Shown here piece after piece: positions 6,482 through 44,598 of a stretch of 64,000 bases of DNA. Every line of letters starts with the position of its first letter. The first letter of the stretch is position 1. A model generated the notes under the pieces. That model ran no database searches. It was not told where the DNA came from and was given only the letters and a program-made list of their open reading frames with translations. The position numbers and the translations under genes were made by a program. The DNA lies in the NCBI GenBank assembly GCA_017504435.1, contig JAFVRD010000040.1, positions 62,001 to 126,000 on the forward strand, read 5' to 3'. The stretch comes from Lentisphaeria bacterium. GTDB lineage: Bacteria; Verrucomicrobiota; Lentisphaeria; Victivallales; Victivallaceae.

Positions 6482-8455
6482 TTACTTGACAAACATCTCT
6501 TTCAATGCCTCAAGTTTAGCCAGATAATAGGCGGTATTTTCATCACGTTCTTCATCTGAACCGGTGAATAATTTTGAATTACCCACCACCGGCACTTTAG
6601 CTTTGGTGCCGGTCACATAGAAACGCACCCGGTCTCCGGCACGATATTTTTTGCCTGATGCAAGAACCAATTCGTATGCGGCAGATCGCCGACCACTGCC
6701 GGAACTCAATTTACGGGCGTAGTTCTCCGGAGAATCGCTCAAAACTTCACTTTTGGCAAAATCTTCCAAAGGTAATTCACGCTGTTCAATGGCATTTTGG
6801 AACTTGCGGTACAATCCATCCACTTCGACATCGCCGCCGCCATGCAGCAAAATATCCACCGCACCGGCAATAAATTTACGCTGAAACGGCTCCAATGACC
6901 GCGATTTCAATGCAGCTCCGGTCAGTATCACTGAATCATCCGGCTGCAGCAGAGCATAATTTTTTGCCTTGTAGGAATACATTGCCTGATAACAGGCATC
7001 AAAATCCAAATCTATTCCCGGTGGTAAAACTTCTGTCACCCGGGAAGTGAAATCATCCCCTGCCCCGGACGGATATTGGAAATAAATCCCATCGGTATCC
7101 ATTTCAATGACCTTGGCTCCAAGTTCACTCAGTCTGGCAGTAAGTTTACCCAGCAATTCCCGACCGGCTGCGGTGACTTTTTCAGCCAGATTATAATCGT
7201 TGAAACATCCCTGAGCAAAGCCGAGATATCCATAAAAAGAATTTATCAGCACTTTGAAAGAACTCTGCAGTGCTTCGACCTGATCACGTTCATTTCCCGG
7301 CGGCAACATCCGCATCCGGTCTTTCGCCGCCAGACGGAAAGTACGCAATTCATTGAGCAGCTTCAAAAATATCCCCAATTCATCACGCGCCGGATTTTCA
7401 TTAAACATCAGCAGTAAAGAGGGATAAAGAGATCTGACATCACAGTGACAGACGTTTTCAAAAAAGCCATGCGCTTCTGCGCCGCTCAATGCTCCGGTAT
7501 AACGGCGCACTTCTTCCGGAACCGGCACAGCATGACCGGCACGGATATATTCTGTAGTCAACAATGCATCCAATGCAATTCCGGAACCGCGCAAAATACA
7601 ATCCTGATATCCCAACGGCAGCACTCTGGTCCGGTAAAAATACGCGGGCATGAGAATTGCTGACAATTTTTCCGCCAATTCCGGCAGATTATCCGCCTTG
7701 ACACCAAAATATTCTTCCAAAGTATCCGGTTCAAAGTCTTCCAGATCCCGGTGTACCGCATCATACAATGCCAAAACATGAATAAGATCAACGACATGCC
7801 GACCGGCAAGCGTGTAACGGTTATAACTTATTTGCTTATCAGATGCCGCAAAACGGCTGGCACGCATGGCGAAACCCTTGCCGTCCCGACCGCAGTCAAG
7901 AGGAATTTTGCAACATTTTGCCCGTTTGACCAATAGCGGCAGATCACTGCGGCAGATATTGAATCCGCACAACACATCCGGGTCAAAACTTTTGATATAT
8001 GAATTGAATTGAGTAATTACCTCAGCTTCACTTCCGGAAAGTTGCTGAACATTTCCTGCATAAAAAAGCGTTATCCCGGAAATTTCACCATCCTCTCCGG
8101 CATTAACGGCAAAACTCATCTGCCGCAACTCCGAAAAATCCATCTGGGCAAAAAGCCGCACTCCGGACTCTCCCAATGCCTGTTGAAGCAGATCCCGGAA
8201 AAGCATTACGTCATTACGCTTTTTCAAGTCCGGCAAATTTCTTTCGTAACTCTCCAGCGAAGCAAAAACCGCTTTCCGGCAAAACGAACCGCCCCCGGCG
8301 AGCGTTACAACATTACAATCCGGAGGCGTTTCCGCCGCCGCTGTAAGCAAAACAAATGGAGAAAAAGGCACATCTTTGAAATGAAATTTATTTCCATCAT
8401 GGAAATAAAGCCGTAATCCCCATCCCCCGACTTCAGCAGCGGTGATTTTATTCAT
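6482..8455 (-). CDS. Family B DNA polymerase with degenerate proofreading exonuclease
   Basis: A 657-residue PolB-type DNA polymerase. Polymerase motifs are intact: motif A DVRSLYPS at 339-346, motif B KVLINSFYG at 401-409 and motif C DTDG at 453-456. The N-terminal DnaQ-like domain keeps an Exo II-like DPDVLCGFNICRSDLP block (158-173), but where Exo I should read FD-x-E the sequence is FAVN (115-118). No clear Y-x-x-x-D Exo III is seen near GYQDC (282-286). Proofreading is therefore probably lost (inference). It is shorter than E. coli Pol II. I chose ATG 8455 over TTG 8470 because it lies just after the upstream stop; the RBS is weak, so coupling is likely. Possible roles are lesion bypass or repair. 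Confidence 0.9.
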   Translation of the reverse strand: MNKITAAEVGGWGLRLYFHDGNKFHFKDVPFSPFVLLTAAAETPPDCNVVTLAGGGSFCRKAVFASLESYERNLPDLKKRNDVMLFRDLLQQALGESGVRLFAQMDFSELRQMSFAVNAGEDGEISGITLFYAGNVQQLSGSEAEVITQFNSYIKSFDPDVLCGFNICRSDLPLLVKRAKCCKIPLDCGRDGKGFAMRASRFAASDKQISYNRYTLAGRHVVDLIHVLALYDAVHRDLEDFEPDTLEEYFGVKADNLPELAEKLSAILMPAYFYRTRVLPLGYQDCILRGSGIALDALLTTEYIRAGHAVPVPEEVRRYTGALSGAEAHGFFENVCHCDVRSLYPSLLLMFNENPARDELGIFLKLLNELRTFRLAAKDRMRMLPPGNERDQVEALQSSFKVLINSFYGYLGFAQGCFNDYNLAEKVTAAGRELLGKLTARLSELGAKVIEMDTDGIYFQYPSGAGDDFTSRVTEVLPPGIDLDFDACYQAMYSYKAKNYALLQPDDSVILTGAALKSRSLEPFQRKFIAGAVDILLHGGGDVEVDGLYRKFQNAIEQRELPLEDFAKSEVLSDSPENYARKLSSGSGRRSAAYELVLASGKKYRAGDRVRFYVTGTKAKVPVVGNSKLFTGSDEERDENTAYYLAKLEALKEMFVK

Positions 8456-8463
8456 GGTTAAAT

Positions 8464-9099
8464 TCAGCAAATAACAGTTGCCAGAGCGAAACCGTCTTCG
8501 GTTTCCATTGCCGCAGCACTGGTCACCGGCTGTTCAAAGTCAGCAAAAACTCCGCCATTTACCACATAATGAGCCGCACAGTCCTGACAGGCAGCATCAA
8601 AATCCCGGTCAATATTGGTGTCGCAGGGAGCATTTTTCTCATAGGTGGAAATATAACGCGCAACTCCGGGTTCCAGAGCGAATTCACGCACCAGCAAACC
8701 ATCTTTGCGGATAATGCCCAGATAACCGACTTTGGAAACCCGACCGGCAACTGCAACTACGCGGGGAGTATCCAATGAGTCTTTTTCATAATCCATGGCG
8801 AGCAATCCCAGTGCAATGGCATCGCGCACCGGCATACCCATGGCGATTTTTTCGGTAATGGGATCAGTCTGTGAACCGTTGGTCGCAATCGCCCATTCTC
8901 CGGCGATGCGGAGGCAGTTGTAGCTGATATACGGATTTTTGGCAAGATCGCTTTCTGCGCCCGGACGGGGAACGATCGCAATTTTGCCATTATTTTCCAC
9001 CGCCTGACGGTTCGGGAAAGAACGGGAAGACACCCGGTACATGGCACAGACTTTGTTGGCTTTAGTCATGCCGAAAGCAACGATTCGACCGATATACAT
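8464..9099 (-). CDS. purO: IMP cyclohydrolase, archaeal PurO type
   Basis: Predicted to close FAICAR to IMP, the last step of de novo purine synthesis. The 211-residue product begins MYIGRIVAFG and contains the Y-R-V-S-S-R-S-F-P-N-R block expected of the PurO/IMP_cyclohyd family (the archaeal alternative to the PurH C-terminal activity). It also has PRP, ATNGSQTD and GPVR-like segments. ATG 9099 is preceded by AAGGAG with good spacing; TTG 9105 is the alternative. It leads a directon with a family B polymerase and a phosphoesterase, under its own promoter. Other purine genes in the window are purB and purM. Whether a normal purH also exists cannot be seen here. Confidence 0.85.
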   Translation of the reverse strand: MYIGRIVAFGMTKANKVCAMYRVSSRSFPNRQAVENNGKIAIVPRPGAESDLAKNPYISYNCLRIAGEWAIATNGSQTDPITEKIAMGMPVRDAIALGLLAMDYEKDSLDTPRVVAVAGRVSKVGYLGIIRKDGLLVREFALEPGVARYISTYEKNAPCDTNIDRDFDAACQDCAAHYVVNGGVFADFEQPVTSAAAMETEDGFALATVIC

Positions 9100-9145
9100 G
9101 ATCAATTCTCCTTAAAAACAAGTTAATTTTCAGTGTTCTGCCTAT

Positions 9146-15537: not shown

Positions 15538-17379
15538 ATGTCAGAGCCGGCAGAAGAAATTAAACAGAACAATTACAGCGAAGAAGATATCCGTACCTTG
15601 GATCCATTGGATCATATCCGGATGCGGCCGGGTATGTATATCGGCCGCCTCGGCAACGGCTCCCACCCGGATGACGGCATCTATGTCTTGCTGAAAGAGA
15701 TCATCGACAACTCCATTGATGAATTCATCATGGGACACGGCAGAAAGATCGAAATTTCAGTAGATGTTGAATCCGGCAAATCATCCATCCGGGATTACGG
15801 ACGTGGTATTCCGCTGAATAAATTGGTTGATTGCGTATCTGTTATGAATACCGGCGGAAAATATAACAGTGACGCATTCCAGTACTCCATCGGTATGAAT
15901 GGTGTAGGTACCAAGGCTGCCAACGCGCTCTCGATTTATTTCAAAGTCCGTTCAATGCGGGACGGAAAATTTCACGAAGCGGAGTTCTGCCGCGGCAAAC
16001 TCACCGGTGAAAATTCCGGCGAATGTGATGACCGGAACGGAACATATATTGAATTCATACCTGATCCGGAAGAATTTCCGGAGTACCGTTTCAATCTGGA
16101 TTATGTGCAGAAGCGGATTTGGATGTATGCGTATTTGAACAGCGGTCTGTCTCTTTACCTTAATGGAGAACGTTACTATTCTGCCAACGGGCTGCGTGAT
16201 CTGCTGGAAACAGAAACCGGTGATGAAAAACTATATGATGTGATCTATTTCCGCAGCAAAATGATTGAGTTTGCCCTGACCCACAGCGATAGTTACGGTG
16301 AAAACAGTTATTCATTTGTCAACGGTCAATATACCAGTGACGGAGGTACTCACTTATCTGCATTCAAGGAAGGTGTGCTTAAAGGGATAAACGAGTTTTC
16401 CGGCAAAGGTTTCAAAGCTGATGCCATCCGGGACGGCATGCGCGGCGCAGTGGCGGTAAAGATCAAAGAACCGGTCTTTGAATCCCAAACCAAAAATAAA
16501 TTGGGCAATACCGATGTTCGCGGTCCGGTTGTAGCGGCAGTCAGTGCAGCTGTTGCAGACTTTTTGCATAAAAACAAGGACATTGCCGAAACTGTTATTG
16601 AAAAAGTTGTCCGCAACGAACAGTTGCACAAACAAATTCAGGATGTCAAAAAGAAATCCCGCGAAGCCTCTCAGAAGTCGCGTTTGCGTATTCCCAAACT
16701 TAAAGATTGCAAATTCCATGTCGGCGATAAATGGCCGCGCAAAGTCGAACCCAAAGAAACGATGATATTTCTTACCGAGGGTGATTCTGCCGCCGGTTCA
16801 TTGGAAAAAAAGCGCGACGTGGATAACCAGGCGATATTCGCACTGCGCGGCAAACCGAAAAATGCTTTCGGTGAAACTATTGAAATGATTTACAAAAATG
16901 AGGAATTGACATTTCTCATGCAGGCTCTCGGAGTGGAAGATTCTACTGAAAATCTTCGCTATGACAAAATCATTCTGGCAACCGATGCGGATGTGGATGG
17001 TCTGCATATCCGCAATTTGCTGTTGACATTTTTCCTCTCATTCTTTGAGCAGTTAGTGCTTTCCGGTCATTTATATGTTTTGGAAACGCCGCTTTTCCGG
17101 GTCAAAAAAGGCAAAGACATCATATACTGCTACAACGATTCAGAAAGAGACAAAGCCGCAGCCGAACTTGGCAAATGTGAAATCACCCGTTTCAAAGGTC
17201 TGGGTGAAATTTCTCCGGATGATTTCGGTGAATTTATCGGCGAAAATATGCGTTTGTCACCGGTGACGCTGGACAACATGCACGGAGTCAACGAAGTATT
17301 GAAATTCTACATGGGGGAAAACACCCCGGAACGCAAAGAGTATATCATGAACAATCTTGAGGTGGTCGATTATGAGTGA
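15538..17379 (+). CDS. parE: DNA topoisomerase IV subunit B-like (ParE/GyrB family)
   Basis: ATPase subunit of a type IIA topoisomerase, 613 residues. GHKL ATP-site blocks EIIDNSIDEF, RDYGRGIP and GMNGVGTKAANALS lie in the N-terminal half. The transducer follows, then TOPRIM with FLTEGDSAAGS and the Mg-binding ATDADVDGLH. The compact size and lack of a GyrB insert favour the ParE-like group seen in Bacteroidetes and Chlamydiae rather than housekeeping GyrB, though naming is by analogy. The last 8 bp overlap the parC start, so subunits are likely translated together. The RBS is weak. Confidence 0.9.
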   Translation: MSEPAEEIKQNNYSEEDIRTLDPLDHIRMRPGMYIGRLGNGSHPDDGIYVLLKEIIDNSIDEFIMGHGRKIEISVDVESGKSSIRDYGRGIPLNKLVDCVSVMNTGGKYNSDAFQYSIGMNGVGTKAANALSIYFKVRSMRDGKFHEAEFCRGKLTGENSGECDDRNGTYIEFIPDPEEFPEYRFNLDYVQKRIWMYAYLNSGLSLYLNGERYYSANGLRDLLETETGDEKLYDVIYFRSKMIEFALTHSDSYGENSYSFVNGQYTSDGGTHLSAFKEGVLKGINEFSGKGFKADAIRDGMRGAVAVKIKEPVFESQTKNKLGNTDVRGPVVAAVSAAVADFLHKNKDIAETVIEKVVRNEQLHKQIQDVKKKSREASQKSRLRIPKLKDCKFHVGDKWPRKVEPKETMIFLTEGDSAAGSLEKKRDVDNQAIFALRGKPKNAFGETIEMIYKNEELTFLMQALGVEDSTENLRYDKIILATDADVDGLHIRNLLLTFFLSFFEQLVLSGHLYVLETPLFRVKKGKDIIYCYNDSERDKAAAELGKCEITRFKGLGEISPDDFGEFIGENMRLSPVTLDNMHGVNEVLKFYMGENTPERKEYIMNNLEVVDYE

Positions 17380-19975
17380 CGAATTTGAAAATCCTCAAGT
17401 AACGGAAGAAGATGCCGATACTGCCGCAGTTGCAGAAAAAAAACGTGGCACCAATGATTACTTCCGGAAAATGATCGACCGCAACTTTCTGGATTATGCC
17501 AGTTATGTCATCGGTTCCCGTGCCATTCCGGATGTGGATGACGGGTTAAAACCGGTTCAGCGGCGGATTTTGTGGGCATTGTATCAGGTTTACGATGGCA
17601 GAACTCAGAAAGTCGCCAACATCGTTGGCAATACCATGCACTATCATCCCCACGGAGACGCTTCCATCGGCGATGCACTGGTAGTGCTTGCCAACAAAGG
17701 CGGTGTGATCGAAAATACTTACCGTGACCGCAAAAGCGGCATGGATAAAGTGGAGTATTTGAATACTCCTTACTTTATCATGAAGCAGGGCAACTTCGGC
17801 AATATTCTCACCGGCAGTCCGGCAGCCGCCGGACGTTATACAGAGTGCGGTCTGACCAAACTTGCTTACGAAACGATGTTCAATAACGACATCACTGCGT
17901 TTGTACCCAATTATGACGGCCGCAAAGAAGAACCGGTAGTACTGCCGGCGAAGTTGCCAAGTCTGCTGATGCTGGGCAGCGACGGTATTGCCGTCGGCAT
18001 GTCGACATGTGTACTGCCGCACAACTTCAATGAACTTCTGGATGCGGAAATCGCAGTTCTGCAGGGCAGACCTTTTCAACTTTATCCGGATTTTCAGCAG
18101 GGAGCATTGATGGATGTTCGGGAATACGATGACGGCAACGGCAGAATCATTCTCCGGGCAAAAATCGATATTGAGGGACGCGATCTGATCATACGGGAAA
18201 TCCCGGCGACATGCACTTCAGAATCTCTGGTTGCTTCCATTGAAAAAGCGGCTGAAAAAAACAAAATCCGCATTTCCAGCGTGGATGATTTCACCACTGA
18301 TCATGTGGAGATCAGAGTCACTCCCACCCGCGGTTACACTCCGGAACAGACTTTGCAGGGATTGTATATGTATACCGACTGCTCGATTTCCATTTCATCG
18401 CGCATCGTGGTCATCTGCGACCGCAAACCGGTGCAAATGAGCGTCAGTCAGGTACTCCGGCGTAATGTGGAAAAACTCGTTGGTTATCTGAAAAGAGAAT
18501 TGGAAATAGACCTTGAACGGCAAAATGAATTGCGTCACGCCAAAACTCTCGCGCAGCTTTTCTTTGAAAACCGTATCTATAAAAAAATTGAAGAGTGCCG
18601 CAGTCAAGAGGAGGAATATCAGGAGGTTCACGCCGGATTATCTCCTTACCGGTCATTGCTGCTGCGTGATGTTACCAACGAAGATATTGATAAACTGCTG
18701 GCTCTGCCGGTGCGCCGGATCGCCAGATTTGACATTGAGAAAAATCAGCAGGAACTGCGGGAAATAGATGAAAAGATCAAAAAGATACGTCATAAATTGT
18801 CTCATCTGATTGATTACACTGTCGATGTACTTAACGACATCAAAAAGAAATACGGCGCGAATTTCCCCCGCCGTACCGAAATCGAACAAATCGAACAGAT
18901 CGACCGCAAAGCAGCCGCATTGAACAATATCAAAGTCGGCTGGGATCGCCGCAACGGTTATGTCGGTACCGGCATAAAAAGTGATGATACCATTGTCTGT
19001 AACGAATATGACCGCCTGGTCTGTATCGAAAAAAGCGGTAAATACCGGGTCATTCCGATGGTTCCGGACAAACTTTTCCTCGGCAAACTCTATGACTTCC
19101 GAAAGTATGACTCTGAAACCCGGTTCGGAGTGATCTACAAAGAGACCAAAAGCGGTAAATATTACGGCAAACGCACCAGTATCGGCGGATTTATTCTGGA
19201 AAAAGAGTACATGCTCTGCCCTCCTGGATGCAAACTGGAACTGCTGACGCCGCGTGCAGATGCGATTTATCTTTGGAGCGAGGAAGATGCCAAAGGAAAA
19301 ATCACTGCCCGCGAAATAAATCTGATGGAGTTTCCGGTACGCGCCCCCAAAGCACGGGGATTGCTTATCGGCAGTAAATCCATGACCAAAGTTACTCATT
19401 CCCGTTATCTTACCGAAGAAGAAATTGCCGCTTTATCAGCTTCCGTCATTCAGGAACCGGAAGATGTTCCAGATGACTCCGGTGAAGATGAGATTCCGGA
19501 GAATACTGTTGAAGAAAATGTTGCCGCGGAAGAAGAAAAAATTCCGGTTCCCAAAGAGATCATGGCCATCGTGGCAGCAGCAAAAGAAGCAGCTAAACGT
19601 GCCGTTATTGAACGTCCGGTAATAAAAATTGAACAAACAGAAGTTGTTGAACAAACAGAAGTTGTTGAACAAACAGAAGCTGTTGAACAAACAGAAGCTG
19701 TTGAACAAACAGAAGTTGTTGAACAAACAGAAGTTGTTGAACAAACAGAAGCTGTTGAACAAACAGAAGCTGTTGAACAAACAGAAGTTGTTGAACAAAC
19801 AGTGGAAAACCACGATGACCGGGAAGTTTTGGAGCTGTCCGGAGAACCGGATGAACTGCCGCGCAAACGCCGCCGGCAGACTTTGCCGGATTCAGTTATG
19901 CCTGCGGTCAAAAGCACACCGCCGCCGGCAGAAGATGATGATTTGGGGATTATCCAGCCGGAGTTCGGATTCTGA
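17372..19975 (+). CDS. parC: DNA topoisomerase IV subunit A-like (ParC/GyrA family) with repeat tail
   Basis: Cleavage subunit of the type IIA enzyme, 867 residues from the ATG overlapping the end of parE. The winged-helix/tower region includes NTMHYHPHGDAS and the active-site tyrosine Y156 in AAGRYTECG. A coiled-coil stretch follows (about 370-500), then a reduced C-terminal domain without a clear GyrA box. The final part is an acidic tail made of nine tandem six-residue units E-Q-T-E-[VA]-V, ending with a conserved-looking acidic tip. The tail is unlikely to be catalytic. An open start at 17357 lies inside parE and is not used. Confidence 0.9.
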   Translation: MSDEFENPQVTEEDADTAAVAEKKRGTNDYFRKMIDRNFLDYASYVIGSRAIPDVDDGLKPVQRRILWALYQVYDGRTQKVANIVGNTMHYHPHGDASIGDALVVLANKGGVIENTYRDRKSGMDKVEYLNTPYFIMKQGNFGNILTGSPAAAGRYTECGLTKLAYETMFNNDITAFVPNYDGRKEEPVVLPAKLPSLLMLGSDGIAVGMSTCVLPHNFNELLDAEIAVLQGRPFQLYPDFQQGALMDVREYDDGNGRIILRAKIDIEGRDLIIREIPATCTSESLVASIEKAAEKNKIRISSVDDFTTDHVEIRVTPTRGYTPEQTLQGLYMYTDCSISISSRIVVICDRKPVQMSVSQVLRRNVEKLVGYLKRELEIDLERQNELRHAKTLAQLFFENRIYKKIEECRSQEEEYQEVHAGLSPYRSLLLRDVTNEDIDKLLALPVRRIARFDIEKNQQELREIDEKIKKIRHKLSHLIDYTVDVLNDIKKKYGANFPRRTEIEQIEQIDRKAAALNNIKVGWDRRNGYVGTGIKSDDTIVCNEYDRLVCIEKSGKYRVIPMVPDKLFLGKLYDFRKYDSETRFGVIYKETKSGKYYGKRTSIGGFILEKEYMLCPPGCKLELLTPRADAIYLWSEEDAKGKITAREINLMEFPVRAPKARGLLIGSKSMTKVTHSRYLTEEEIAALSASVIQEPEDVPDDSGEDEIPENTVEENVAAEEEKIPVPKEIMAIVAAAKEAAKRAVIERPVIKIEQTEVVEQTEVVEQTEAVEQTEAVEQTEVVEQTEVVEQTEAVEQTEAVEQTEVVEQTVENHDDREVLELSGEPDELPRKRRRQTLPDSVMPAVKSTPPPAEDDDLGIIQPEFGF
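19631..19802 (+). repeat. 18-bp tandem repeat, nine copies, inside parC tail
   Basis: Nine perfect-length units of gaacaaacagaagttgtt, with gtt or gct as the variable codon, then a partial tenth. The variable codon runs V V A A V V A A V, so a four-unit 72-bp block has itself been duplicated. Length is a multiple of three, so copy changes keep the frame. Confidence 0.95.
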
Positions 19976-36383: not shown

Positions 36384-36412
36384 TTGACTTACAACAAACT
36401 CCGTGCTATATT
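36384..36412 (+). promoter_or_regulatory. Promoter for rpsA
   Basis: TTGACT (36384-36389), 17 bp, TATATT (36407-36412) preceded by GTGC. Strong match, and nearly the same core as the promoter at 50350-50378. It gives a leader of roughly 80 bases. Confidence 0.82.
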
Positions 36413-36502
36413 ATATGATATTGTTGTATTCATTCCGGCACGGTGCCGTTGTGAATTGTAGTAAAGCAGTAAAAAGTAAACCAAACAAGAAAAAACAACC
36501 AA

Positions 36503-38239
36503 ATGGAAGAAAACAAATTCGCAGAAAGTTTTCTTGACTTCAGCGGCATGCCCGAGAGCATGGAAGAACTGCTGAACGGCCAAGAAAGCGCCGCCACCAT
36601 CACCAAAGGCAAAATTGTCGAAGGAACCATCGTTGCCAAACGTCAGGACGGCGCACTGGTCGACATCGGCTACAAAGCAGAGGGTTTTATCCCGGCCGGT
36701 GAATTTATGGATTTTGAAAGCATCAATGTCGGTGACAAAATCGATGTCTACCTCGAAGAGATCGAAAACCGTCAGAACATGCCAACTCTCAGCTTGGAAA
36801 AAGCATATTCCATCAAAGCCTGGAACCGCATCACCACCGAATATGGCGAAGGTCACATTGTCAAAGGTATCATGCGTCACCGGGTCAAAGGCGGTATTAT
36901 GGTCGATGTTGAAGGCTTCCCCGCTTTCCTGCCCGGCAGCCAGCTCGATGTCAGCCCCGTCCGCAATATGGATGATTATCTCAACAAAGAATATGATGTC
37001 AAAATCATCAAAATCAATGTTGAACGTCACAACATCGTCGTTTCCCGCCGCGAATTGCTTGAGGAATCTCTCCGCGATCAGCGTTGCAAACTGATGTCCG
37101 ATATGAAAGTCGATGAAGTTGTCAAGGGTATCGTTAAAAATATCACTGATTTCGGTGCATTCATCGATCTCGGCGGCATTGACGGTCTGCTTCACATCAC
37201 CGACATTTCCTGGGGTCGCATCAATCATCCCAGCGAAGTCCTTACCGTCGGTCAGGAAATCGAAGTTGTCGTTATCGGCATTGATAAAGACAAAGAACGT
37301 GTCTCTCTCGGCTTGAAACAGAAAACCCGCAATCCGTGGGATGATGTTGTCGCCAAATATCCCAAAGGCAGCCATGTTTCCGGTAAAGTTGTCAATCTCA
37401 TGCCCTATGGTGCTTTTGTTGAAATCGAAACCGGTGTTGAAGGTCTGATCCACGTTTCCGAAATGAGCTGGACCAAACGTGTCAACAAAGCCAGCGACAT
37501 CCTCAACAAAGATGATGTGGTCGAAGCTGTTGTTTTGGACATTGATCGTGACAGCCGCAAAATTTCTCTCGGCCTCCGTCAGAAAGAACGCAATCCGTGG
37601 GAAGTCCTCGCTGAAAAATATCCGGTTGGCAAACACATTGTCGGTAAAGTCCGCAACATGACCAACTACGGTGCTTTTGTTGAAATCGAAAATGATATTG
37701 ATGGTATGATCCACGTCTCCGATATGAGCTGGACCCGCAAAATCAACAAACCCAGCGAAGTCCTTACTCCGGGACAGGAAATCGAAGTTGTCATTCTGGA
37801 AATCAATCCGGAACAGCAGCGCATTTCTCTCGGTCTGAAACAGGCAGAAAATGATCCCTGGAGCAACATCAACGACCTTTATAAAGTCGGCGATATTGTC
37901 AAAGGCAGCGTCACCAAGATCACCACTTTCGGTGCTTTTGTTGAACTGAGCAACAAAATCGACGGTCTGATTCACATCTCCCAGCTGAGCAACGAACGCG
38001 TTGACAAAGTCAAAGACGTTCTCAAAGTCGGTGATGAAGTTGAAGCCCGCGTGATCAAAGTTGATACCGATGAACGTCGTATTGGTCTCTCCATCAAAGC
38101 TGTTGACAGCAACTTCTCCGAAGCGGATCTGAAAGCTGCTGAAGAAGAATACACCGCAGCTCTGAAACCCGGCGATGCCATGGTCAACGTCGGCGAAGTC
38201 TTTGAGTCCGGTGCCATGGATGCTCTGAAACTTGACTGA
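36503..38239 (+). CDS. rpsA: Ribosomal protein bS1
   Basis: RNA-binding 30S protein needed to initiate on structured or SD-poor mRNA. The 578-residue product has six S1 OB-fold repeats. The last four share the pattern G-x-V-x-x-[IVM]-x-x-[FY]-G-A-F-[IV]-x-[IL] followed by GLIHIS-like ends. The ATG is preceded by an A-rich stretch without a Shine-Dalgarno, as is common for self-regulated rpsA genes. A small GGCAC/GGTGCC hairpin lies in the leader near 36437-36447. A terminator follows. A 632-codon antisense open frame is a shadow. Confidence 0.97.
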   Translation: MEENKFAESFLDFSGMPESMEELLNGQESAATITKGKIVEGTIVAKRQDGALVDIGYKAEGFIPAGEFMDFESINVGDKIDVYLEEIENRQNMPTLSLEKAYSIKAWNRITTEYGEGHIVKGIMRHRVKGGIMVDVEGFPAFLPGSQLDVSPVRNMDDYLNKEYDVKIIKINVERHNIVVSRRELLEESLRDQRCKLMSDMKVDEVVKGIVKNITDFGAFIDLGGIDGLLHITDISWGRINHPSEVLTVGQEIEVVVIGIDKDKERVSLGLKQKTRNPWDDVVAKYPKGSHVSGKVVNLMPYGAFVEIETGVEGLIHVSEMSWTKRVNKASDILNKDDVVEAVVLDIDRDSRKISLGLRQKERNPWEVLAEKYPVGKHIVGKVRNMTNYGAFVEIENDIDGMIHVSDMSWTRKINKPSEVLTPGQEIEVVILEINPEQQRISLGLKQAENDPWSNINDLYKVGDIVKGSVTKITTFGAFVELSNKIDGLIHISQLSNERVDKVKDVLKVGDEVEARVIKVDTDERRIGLSIKAVDSNFSEADLKAAEEEYTAALKPGDAMVNVGEVFESGAMDALKLD

Positions 38240-38264
38240 TTGCAGTCTGTTTGAGTATTGCAAA

Positions 38265-38298
38265 ACGGAGTGGAATTTATTTTCCACTCCGTTTTTTT
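38265..38298 (+). terminator. Intrinsic terminator after rpsA
   Basis: Perfect 11-bp stem ACGGAGTGGAA (38265-38275) and TTCCACTCCGT (38282-38292), then a T run. Confidence 0.92.
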
Positions 38299-40908: not shown

Positions 40909-43900
40909 TTAAAGATAATCTATACTTCTGATTTTGATTCTGCCGGTTGCCGGATTCCGTTCCAAAGTAACAAAGACTTTGACCTCACCGGTTATTTCAT
41001 CGAAATAAACATTTTTTTCCGGATTACTCTTGTGTTTATAATAATCAAATACTCCTTTAGTGCATGTTTTGGTTGCAATTTTATCTCCGGAATCTATCTC
41101 AGCACCGGACTCAAACTCGGTTTCAGCAGTACTTTTCACTTGAACACCCTCTACATCTTTTATGCTTTGGGCAACTACCACAATCTGAATGATTGATGGC
41201 GGAACCTCTTTTTGGGCACTGAGCAAATTAATGGTTTTACCAATTATTTCTTCACGAGAAGCATCGGTGTCCGACACACCTGAAGCCCCCCGGAATCTCT
41301 CGATAATGTTGTCATAATAGTAGTTCAGAAATTCACCCCGGCTGGAATAATCTCCACGATTTCCGGTAAATGCGCTGATGACTTCCGAAGACGTATCCAA
41401 ATCAGCACCTGATGAATCCCGCTGAGTAGTCGGAAAAGGTCTGGTACTGTTATTCGTCGCACCGCTGCGAGTGGAATTATAGATAAAATCTTCAGGTTTT
41501 TCACCATATACCACCCCATTGAACAACGCATTGATCATATTGGGTTCCAGTGTTGCATTATATTGAGAGTGCCTATCTGACAACATATTAACATTGATTT
41601 TACCGTAGGTTCTCAATTGTGCGGTCATTTTAATATAATCCAAAATGCCTCCGTCACCTTCTGAATATGATGTTCCCGGCAAAGTCCATGAATTATTGCC
41701 AGCCAAATGACCATCCTCGGCGGAATAAGTTCCGCCCCCGGGACGTCCGGCTTTTGTCAAATTGAGCGTCTGCCAACGGACACCGCGGTGAATGAATCCG
41801 ATCTCCCACGGACTCATCATCGGGGCATTACGGATATATGCGGTCGAAATCCGTTGAGTGTCAGTCGCGCCCGGCTCAGTAACGGTCTCTCTATCTCCGG
41901 CAGATGCCAAACTGGGATTGAAATTGCCATCAACAGCACTTGCCGATGCAGTTGATGCGTTGACCAATCCTTGTTTACTATTGTCAATACGCATTGCGCT
42001 GTTAATAACACAAGTGGATTCGACCTCACCATTAATACCGGTCAAAGTCTGATAGTTATACAAATTGACAAATTCCAAACTATCACTCCAATCCTCTGGA
42101 TTGAGATTCTGGCGCGGATCGTAGTTTCGCATACCTCCGACCAGCAGACCTTTTTTATTCGTTCCGGCTGGGTCGTCCGGCTTATTCACTTCCACAATAT
42201 TAGTCAAATTATCAGCTTTTATGTCACCAAGTACAGCATAATCAACTCCCACATCAGCAACACTGTTGACCTTCACCGGAGATGTCAATTCCTTGGTCGT
42301 ACCTGTTAAAACAACACGTGGCTGGAAAGAAATTTCACTGACTTTTATTTTTGACAGGGTGATTTTTTCCAAATTCACTTCGTTAAACAATACACTTCTG
42401 TCACCGGTGAACCCACTGTCACCGGCAATACGAAACTCTGAACTGCTATTGTATGTGCCAGCTTTGATATTCGTATACAACGTCTTGAAATCAGCAAAAT
42501 CTCCGTTGCCACTTTTCATTTTGATTACAACATCGTCCTGGAGATTGTCATCAACATCAAAGAAATCTTTGAGTTTACCAGAATTGAATTTGGCAAATCC
42601 CATATCACCGGTAACAAAATTGTTGGTTTGAATCACCGTATCATCAATTACCGATACAGGATAACGCGAATCGGCGGCATGGTAGTCAAAATAAATTTTT
42701 CCGGGTATTTCAGGAGATGCGGTTTGCGAATTGGGCAGTTTTTTCCATTCTGAATCCTGCCCGACAGATAAAACCGCAGCCTGAGAACTATTGGGATCGG
42801 TTACAAGTCCCTGATTATGATCAGCATCATTCAAATTAACTGTAATATCAACATATAATTCGCGTTTCTCCCACGATACAGTGGGATTTCCCGGATCATC
42901 AGGATTGGGCGTGGTGATTTTTTTCTCATAGACCAACTTGACATCTCTGAGAATAACCTGCTCAGTCTGTGCAGAAATGCTCAGTTTCCCGAAATCAACA
43001 TTTGCCGACACGGGAACCCGGTTTGGCTGAGCAGCATCAGTCTGCCACAATTCCTCGATTTCGGTCCGGGGATAAATATTGGCAAGTTTCACAATCGGCA
43101 GCATATTTACCTGCAAATATGAATTCGCCGGAAACTTGAATGTACCGCCATCTCCCGCCGGGGTCAGATCATCGTTGGCATCCAGTGCCATACTGAATCC
43201 CAATTCATAAATGTACGGGGATTTCTCATTGCCGGTAAAATACGGATCTTTTTTTTCTGTTCCGACTTTCCACCATGATAAATCACTGCCGTTCGGCCCC
43301 CAGTCTTTTGCGGCGATATCAGAAGTCGGCACACTGTCAGCATCACAATAATCGTTAAAATTGGCGGCAATCTGTTTGCGCCAACTTTCCAAATCAGCAC
43401 TTCCGTCTTCCAACAAAAATGTTGTATTGCCATCCGACGTGGATCCAATCAAACGCAGAAACCCCAAACCGGTACGTTTTTTTAACGGAACATCAAAGTC
43501 ATACTCCCATTCTTCATCATAATCATCGCCGTCATAAAAAGCAGTCAACCTTTCAAGAGCTTCCGGAGAGTTTACATTACCATCCGCAGCGTTTCCGGAA
43601 TCAATACCGAAACGGGCATACCACGGATCACTTCCAAGAGATACATTGAAACCATCCTGACCATATATGTCACTGTCAGATACATTTTCAACGAAAATTT
43701 CGGAAATATTGAACCGCAACGGTTCCGGAATCAGCATAGATGCATCGTATATCGTTTTATCCTCCGGCTCCGGAATCAACCATTTCTCCAACCAACGTTT
43801 TTTCGTATTATCATCAATCCCGTCAACATCACCGCACAGGTCATAAATTGCATTATAATCAAGAATCTTTTTGTTAAGAATGTCAGGATCAGAAGAAGCA

Positions 43901-44598
43901 AGAGCATTCTCTATAGTCCTGAACATCGGAGTTGCGTTATCCAGAAAAACTTCATCAATCTCCCGTCCCCAACGGTTTTTTCTCGGTATAAAAGCTCTAT
44001 CAAGAGTCGAATCACTATTGTCAATATGTCCACGGAAGAATACCGGAGCAAGAATTTGCGACGGAGCCGAAAAAACCTGCCATGCCGCCCTGCCGATGAT
44101 CTGTCTGCCAGAACCGCCGTGATCGTAAAAAAACACCCACTTGCCATTCCAGCTGCTTTTGAACTTTTCATTGAATATAGCGGCACTTGAAGCGTCAACG
44201 ACCGAATTATCTCCCGGCAAAGTCAGCAATGATTTGAATTTGCCGCTGGAAAGCAGTGCATCATTGAATTCTTCACTGCCGCCGGCAGATAAATTACCGT
44301 CAGAATCATATTGACTGAAACTGTAAATGTCATTAAAATTCTCCGGACTTTTCTCCAAATCAAGTATACACTGCTGCTGGTACAGCATCACCGCCGCCAC
44401 AGCCCGGTTGACAGCGGATAAAGCGATCATCCGAGCCTGAGTCCGGGCACGGTTATTCTGCGCGGCTTTTTTGAACACCAAAGAATTTCCGACAAATGCC
44501 ACCCCGATCACAAGCAGCAATGCGAGCAATCCGATGGCAAAAACCAATGCCGCACCGCTTTCACCGGTATATTTTTCACGTCTCTCTGTCATATCCAT
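40909..44598 (-). CDS. Giant GspK-like pseudopilin, Verru_Chthon cassette protein A-like
   Basis: A 1229-residue exported protein; ordinary GspK is about 300-350. The N-terminus has a type IV pilin/PilX-like helix (SGAALVFAIGLLALLLVIGV), then a long coil with ARTQARMIALSAVNRAVAAV. Near residue 1000 is GKINVNML, like the GspK K-[IL]-N-[VL]-N motif. Between them lie about 900 residues rich in D, N, S, T and G, with repeated Y/W beta segments. Size, order and the three small pseudopilins upstream fit the Verru_Chthon cassette (A of A-D), whose function is unknown. TAATG overlap with gene C. A surface or tip role is inference. Confidence 0.8.
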   Translation of the reverse strand: MDMTERREKYTGESGAALVFAIGLLALLLVIGVAFVGNSLVFKKAAQNNRARTQARMIALSAVNRAVAAVMLYQQQCILDLEKSPENFNDIYSFSQYDSDGNLSAGGSEEFNDALLSSGKFKSLLTLPGDNSVVDASSAAIFNEKFKSSWNGKWVFFYDHGGSGRQIIGRAAWQVFSAPSQILAPVFFRGHIDNSDSTLDRAFIPRKNRWGREIDEVFLDNATPMFRTIENALASSDPDILNKKILDYNAIYDLCGDVDGIDDNTKKRWLEKWLIPEPEDKTIYDASMLIPEPLRFNISEIFVENVSDSDIYGQDGFNVSLGSDPWYARFGIDSGNAADGNVNSPEALERLTAFYDGDDYDEEWEYDFDVPLKKRTGLGFLRLIGSTSDGNTTFLLEDGSADLESWRKQIAANFNDYCDADSVPTSDIAAKDWGPNGSDLSWWKVGTEKKDPYFTGNEKSPYIYELGFSMALDANDDLTPAGDGGTFKFPANSYLQVNMLPIVKLANIYPRTEIEELWQTDAAQPNRVPVSANVDFGKLSISAQTEQVILRDVKLVYEKKITTPNPDDPGNPTVSWEKRELYVDITVNLNDADHNQGLVTDPNSSQAAVLSVGQDSEWKKLPNSQTASPEIPGKIYFDYHAADSRYPVSVIDDTVIQTNNFVTGDMGFAKFNSGKLKDFFDVDDNLQDDVVIKMKSGNGDFADFKTLYTNIKAGTYNSSSEFRIAGDSGFTGDRSVLFNEVNLEKITLSKIKVSEISFQPRVVLTGTTKELTSPVKVNSVADVGVDYAVLGDIKADNLTNIVEVNKPDDPAGTNKKGLLVGGMRNYDPRQNLNPEDWSDSLEFVNLYNYQTLTGINGEVESTCVINSAMRIDNSKQGLVNASTASASAVDGNFNPSLASAGDRETVTEPGATDTQRISTAYIRNAPMMSPWEIGFIHRGVRWQTLNLTKAGRPGGGTYSAEDGHLAGNNSWTLPGTSYSEGDGGILDYIKMTAQLRTYGKINVNMLSDRHSQYNATLEPNMINALFNGVVYGEKPEDFIYNSTRSGATNNSTRPFPTTQRDSSGADLDTSSEVISAFTGNRGDYSSRGEFLNYYYDNIIERFRGASGVSDTDASREEIIGKTINLLSAQKEVPPSIIQIVVVAQSIKDVEGVQVKSTAETEFESGAEIDSGDKIATKTCTKGVFDYYKHKSNPEKNVYFDEITGEVKVFVTLERNPATGRIKIRSIDYL

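Follow-up and report, generated by a model that had tools for sequence, protein, structure and literature searches.

Surveys of bacterial family B DNA polymerases (PolBs) report that groups G1 and G3 keep proofreading and that only the archaeal-derived group G2 has lost it (PMC12926913, PMC7544198). G1 and G3 are described as conserving both the exonuclease site and a clamp motif, and G2 as inactivated; E. coli Pol II, a G1 enzyme, is SOS-induced (PMC12926913). Group G3 consists of epsilon-N-like bacterial PolBs and is uncharacterised (Kazlauskas 2020, Timinskas 2026). A conserved glutamate in polymerase motif C is given as the most obvious mark that bacterial G3 shares with archaeal B10 and eukaryotic Pol epsilon-N (PMC7544198). 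In archaeal PolB2 and bacterial G2, Exo I is not conserved and Exo III is missing altogether, and in eukaryotes the exonuclease domain is inactivated in the catalytic subunits of the B-family polymerases Pol zeta and Pol alpha (PMC7544198).

Contrary to these surveys, the sequences analysed here indicate that proofreading was lost inside an epsilon-like bacterial group, and several times. In the literature that we searched, main texts mostly from outside subscription journals, we found no mention of this group losing its exonuclease.

Exonuclease motifs of the Lentisphaeria polymerase

The gene considered here lies in the window, by which we mean the whole 64,000-nucleotide stretch of DNA that was analysed, part of a 2.26 Mb draft genome that is 95% complete. 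Its nearest named relatives are Lentisphaeria MAGs, many of which, by their titles, come from sheep, deer and other animal-gut samples. The open reading frame starts with ATG and encodes 657 residues plus a stop. Its product matches the Pfam families DNA_pol_B (88.4 bits against a cut-off of 23) and DNA_pol_B_exo1 (41.7 bits against a cut-off of 23), and by sequence the solved structures nearest to it are those of archaeal B-family polymerases. The features of the locus are as follows.

6482..8455, minus strand: family B DNA polymerase gene (polB), 657 aa, exonuclease site lost, polymerase site kept
8102..8113, minus strand: Exo I remnant FAVN, residues 115-118, with A116 and N118 in place of the D and E of FD-x-E
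7943..7960, minus strand: Exo II remnant NICRSD, residues 166-171, with D171 kept and the preceding F changed to S
7673..7678, minus strand: approximate junction, residues 260-261, of the ~27-residue deletion that removes Exo III
7418..7441, minus strand: polymerase motif A, DVRSLYPS, residues 339-346, intact
7229..7255, minus strand: polymerase motif B, KVLINSFYG, residues 401-409, intact
7088..7105, minus strand: polymerase motif C, EMDTDG, residues 451-456, with both Asp and the epsilon-like Glu
8464..9105, minus strand: IMP cyclohydrolase-like gene directly upstream of polB

Where relatives read FDIET at Exo I, the window protein reads FAVN, so that both acids are lost. At Exo II it has NICRSD in place of NIFRFD, retaining the aspartate. 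Exo III, which reads YALDD in relatives, is missing, about 27 residues having been deleted near residue 260, and a second deletion of about 13 residues falls just after Exo I. All three motifs, as FDIET, NIFRFD and YALDD or close variants, are complete in 22 relatives of the same order. We scored five positions (the D and E of Exo I, the D of Exo II, and the Y and D of Exo III) in 27 proteins that have lost the site, namely the 26 members of the window's genus with full frames (window included) and one further protein, L068, and in 71 relatives that have kept it. Left out of this count were duplicates, the E. coli sequence (L051), the lost Verrucomicrobiota protein L136, and L053, L104 and L116, which are fragments or broken frames. 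All 71 kept relatives have the five positions complete; none of the 27 lost proteins does. No lost protein has both Exo I acids; the Exo II aspartate persists in 17.

The only acidic residues conserved across all 27 lost exonuclease halves are D158, D160, D223 and D232, and we rejected these as substitutes for the missing acids; they are equally or nearly as conserved in the relatives that keep the exonuclease. Because the site is complete in every kept relative and in no lost protein, and no conserved acid has appeared elsewhere, the pattern is not one of misalignment, and loss of proofreading is strongly supported by the alignment and by its distribution across relatives. The first-pass annotation, made from this stretch of DNA alone, had read FAVN at Exo I, found Exo III unrecognisable and motifs A, B and C intact, and concluded that proofreading seemed to be lost. 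The comparison with relatives upholds that account, placing DVRSLYPS, KVLINSFYG and DTDG at the three polymerase motifs and tracing the absence of Exo III to a deletion; the acids that, on an alternative alignment, might have sat elsewhere were sought among the 27 proteins and no conserved substitute was found.

That annotation had also proposed that the fold survives. The predicted structure of the window protein, confident throughout (mean pLDDT 92.5, pTM 0.84), is otherwise complete and aligns to the archaeal PolB 1tgo over 626 residues (Z 28.6, rmsd 4.8). A model of the exonuclease-keeping Victivallis-type relative L069 (pLDDT 90.6) aligns to 1tgo over 669 residues (Z 30.3, rmsd 4.6). Since the window model is confident at full length and matches archaeal PolBs, it seems that the fold of the exonuclease domain has been retained as a scaffold although the site within it is gone.

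Relation to described polymerase groups

The comparison with E. coli Pol II suggested in the first-pass annotation proved unsuitable, the window protein being a different, epsilon-like bacterial PolB. Both are accessory bacterial PolBs with N-terminal, exonuclease and polymerase domains. However, Pol II keeps all three exonuclease motifs complete, and we rejected orthology to it (G1). The window protein scores 94.7 bits against the nearest Pol II equivalog model (NCBIfam NF004421), far below the cut-off of 570, and lacks the conserved exonuclease site, whereas the E. coli PolB clears the cut-offs of three Pol II models. The glutamate by which G3 is recognised is named without an exact column in PMC7544198 and was matched here to the residue two positions before the motif-C DTD, where all 27 lost and all 71 kept proteins have a glutamate and E. 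coli Pol II has none. From this residue and the published description, we call the window protein an epsilon-like (G3-type) polymerase in which one of the features ascribed to G3 has been lost. It resembles G3 in its N-terminal, exonuclease and polymerase domains, in the motif-C glutamate, and in being an accessory bacterial PolB distinct from Pol II. It departs from G3 in the exonuclease site, where the 71 kept relatives conform to the description and the lost proteins do not.

G3 enzymes are reported to carry a beta-clamp motif (PMC12926913). No C-terminal clamp-like tail is seen in the lost proteins: a pentapeptide of this kind is absent from 28 of 28 lost tails, and it is absent from many kept tails too. 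We therefore discarded the idea that the clamp tail was lost jointly with the exonuclease, as its absence is nonspecific and extends to exonuclease-keeping groups such as the Oligosphaera group. A clamp-binding-like tail (e.g. QPDLF) ends many exonuclease-keeping relatives, among them L036, L079 and L107, and some exonuclease-keeping groups are without it.

In the non-conservation of Exo I and the absence of Exo III, the window protein is like archaeal PolB2 and bacterial G2. Unlike these, which have one motif-C aspartate, all 27 lost proteins retain both aspartates of the DTD. Given the single aspartate of G2, we take the resemblance in Exo I and Exo III to be convergent. PolB2/G2 polymerases have the associated proteins PPB2 and iRadA; among the neighbours of the lost polB genes, the IMP-cyclohydrolase-like gene is the sole recurrent one, and no cluster of partner genes is seen. 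Pol zeta and Pol alpha offer a further parallel, as B-family polymerases with an inactivated exonuclease domain, but they are multisubunit eukaryotic enzymes of another clade, and the resemblance would be functional only.

Distribution and number of losses

A polB match occurs in 28 of 34 genomes of the window's genus, and every one of these shows the loss: 26 have intact full frames, G027 has a piece at a contig edge and G022 has a broken copy. In the remaining six no match was found, and one of these genomes is 97% complete. The broken frame in G022 (contig 274, locus L055) may reflect decay or assembly error. Two near-identical polB copies in G051 (contigs 156 and 186; L047 and L044) are possibly strain variants of the assembly.

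Across the phylum, 192 of 387 sampled genomes carry a homologue. A wider sample was drawn from part of these 192 genomes (30 loci, 20 regions from the same family and 40 further regions hand-selected among the listed matches) and joined to the earlier sequences; in it the site is kept in 130 sequences and lost in 32, with duplicates removed by identity or containment, the E. coli sequence uncounted, and L104 and L116 set aside. L104 lacks its Exo I part, and L116, initially scored as lost because its first part sits in another frame, was excluded from the trees. Lost proteins beyond those already described are L199, from another genus of the same family, and L136, L168, L169 and L170, from elsewhere in the phylum.

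We placed all 32 lost sequences and 56 of the 130 kept ones, the latter hand-picked to cover families, in a maximum-likelihood tree of 88 rows built from polymerase columns only. The tree implies four changes (bootstrap range 3-5), three of which are forced by well-supported branches. One lost clade unites the window's genus with L199 (27 rows, support 94/97), L068 falls among exonuclease-keeping Victivallis-type sequences, and the remaining lost proteins pair L136 with L169 and L168 with L170. As regain of a deleted site is implausible, we read the four changes as independent losses, at least three in number. A narrower tree gave three changes, and on it an AU test did not reject a single Lentisphaeria origin (p 0.18 with 27 losers, 0.30 with the 26 genus losers). 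We nonetheless set aside a single origin of all Lentisphaeria losses, as L068 separates from the clade of the genus and L199 once more Victivallis relatives are included. As part of the overall explanation given below, we place one loss in the common ancestor of the Lentisphaeria gut genus and one neighbouring genus.

The scatter of losses has practical consequences. Species that keep the exonuclease are available as sisters of those that lost it, for example within one Victivallis-type genus, and provide natural matched pairs. Such pairs could show whether loss of proofreading creates an extender of lesions or mismatches and whether it raises the mutation rate. The group is, in addition, a source of naturally exonuclease-free polymerases from non-thermophilic bacteria.

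Maintenance, regulation and possible role

All 27 lost proteins, and the 32 of the wider set, have polymerase motifs A, B and C intact. Pairwise comparisons, which are non-independent, are given here for 16 of the 18 lost pairs and 16 of the 42 kept pairs. Fifteen of these lost pairs yielded a finite polymerase-half dN/dS, of about 0.05-0.16; in the remaining one, dS of that half was saturated. The ratio of exonuclease-half dN to polymerase-half dN was 1.45-2.23 in the lost pairs and 0.32-1.73 in the kept pairs. At a polymerase identity of 0.50-0.55, mean exonuclease-half identity is 0.32 within the genus versus 0.48 within the order; at 0.60-0.65 the values are 0.41 and 0.55. These comparisons indicate that the polymerase half is under purifying selection and that the exonuclease half evolves faster, and on sequence grounds the window protein is very likely active as a polymerase.

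The overall explanation that we favour, by a modest lean rather than firmly, is that the window gene encodes an active epsilon-like PolB that has permanently lost proofreading and serves as an extender or gap-filler, probably outside SOS control. Without its exonuclease, the enzyme would be unable to idle by excising nucleotides just added at a mismatch, a lesion or a poor primer end. Such an inability would favour extension over idling, and we infer that extension of damaged or mismatched primer ends is the best reading of its role. The polymerase would then extend ends or fill gaps behind the replicative polymerase, in the manner of archaeal PolB2 (Dpo2) and of Pol zeta, which extends past lesions. 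The first-pass annotation had moved from the lost residues to a translesion or error-prone role. The loss of residues stands, and analogy with PolB2 and Pol zeta makes a role of this general kind plausible, but 'error-prone' does not follow: exonuclease-free Sulfolobus Dpo2 is described as accurate on undamaged DNA and as an efficient mismatch extender (PMC8764526).

Against the extender reading, 54 of 60 genomes, G000 among them, have a Y-family polymerase (IMS), so that another translesion enzyme exists in nearly all of them; the same count led us to reject the notion that PolB stands in for a missing Y-family enzyme. A link between exonuclease loss and loss of mismatch repair was likewise rejected: 55 of the 60 genomes have MutS_III, and none of the 16 in the window's subclade lacks it. 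The window's genome itself carries DnaE, a Y-family polymerase and MutS.

The strongest competitor, unlikely but of some weight, is that proofreading was lost as the whole gene became unimportant in gut bacteria and that polB is on its way out. The six genus genomes with no match and the broken copy in G022 suggest that polB is dispensable and may be decaying; the fast evolution of the exonuclease half and the very long branch of the related lost protein L199 would fit the same course. Against decay, the polymerase motifs are intact throughout the lost proteins, the dN/dS of the polymerase half is low, and the gene has persisted over deep splits, with a mean polymerase identity within the genus of 0.59.

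Returning to the extender reading, its regulatory part draws on the gene's surroundings. All 22 members of the main clade have the IMP-cyclohydrolase-like gene directly upstream of polB and in the same orientation; in the window its stop codon and the polB ATG are 8 bases apart. Four exonuclease-lost members of the genus (L019, L020, L025 and L026) are without this neighbour, which counts against the reading; it is also absent beside polB in L068 and at all exonuclease-keeping loci inspected, some of which have short flanks. No other neighbour is common to the lost clade and its exonuclease-keeping relatives. Across the clade the IMP-cyclohydrolase-like protein is 69-95% identical, compared with 44-66% for the adjoining polymerase.

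The LexA DNA-binding family was not found in any of the 16 genomes of the window's subclade (G000, G001, G003, G004, G008, G010, G012, G015, G017, G020, G021, G025, G028, G029, G031 and G033), seven of which are at least 90% complete. It is present in 10 of the 10 other genus genomes with an intact exonuclease-lost polB. The SOS regulator was possibly lost, then, in the window's subclade. In the window's genome a single frame matches the S24-peptidase family; it is 309 residues long, its alignment begins at position 28 of the profile, and we read it as a signal peptidase and not as LexA. A shared palindrome (SOS box) upstream of lexA, sought for a later search before polB, was not found. The position of polB directly behind the IMP-cyclohydrolase-like gene and the absence of LexA hint, as a weaker element of the explanation, that expression in the window's lineage may be constitutive and coupled to that of a housekeeping gene of purine synthesis instead of to SOS.

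Proofreading could alternatively be supplied in trans by a separate exonuclease. Bacterial C-family polymerases often use a separate DnaQ (PMC12926913), and stand-alone PolB-exo2-like proteins of about 220 residues occur in two genomes of the genus, G005 (C210) and G017 (C7). Such stand-alone matches are sporadic, however, PF10108 is unmatched in the window's genome, and the sole recurrent polB neighbour is not an exonuclease; we regard this arrangement as improbable. Least credible of all is that the exonuclease still acts through other residues or that its loss is a sequencing or assembly artefact: retention of the Exo II aspartate in 17 of 27 lost proteins is in its favour, but there is no conserved replacement acid, Exo III is deleted and not shifted, and the same loss recurs in other lineages and across 26 genus genomes that were assembled separately.

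If the extender reading is right, its wider meaning may be that, in bacteria, epsilon-like polymerases with proofreading have repeatedly become constitutive extenders without it, in parallel to the origin of Pol zeta and PolB2, and that in the window's lineage the polymerase has moved out of SOS and into co-expression with purine synthesis, with LexA lost. We offer this generalisation tentatively and hold it less probable than the explanation of the window gene itself.

Elsewhere in the window, two long frames on the minus strand have no Pfam match at E 1e-4, one of 1229 residues (40909-44598) and one of 632 residues (36389-38287); the strand opposite the latter carries an overlapping frame of 578 residues. 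Adjacent genes for the B and A subunits of a type II topoisomerase occupy positions 15538-19975.
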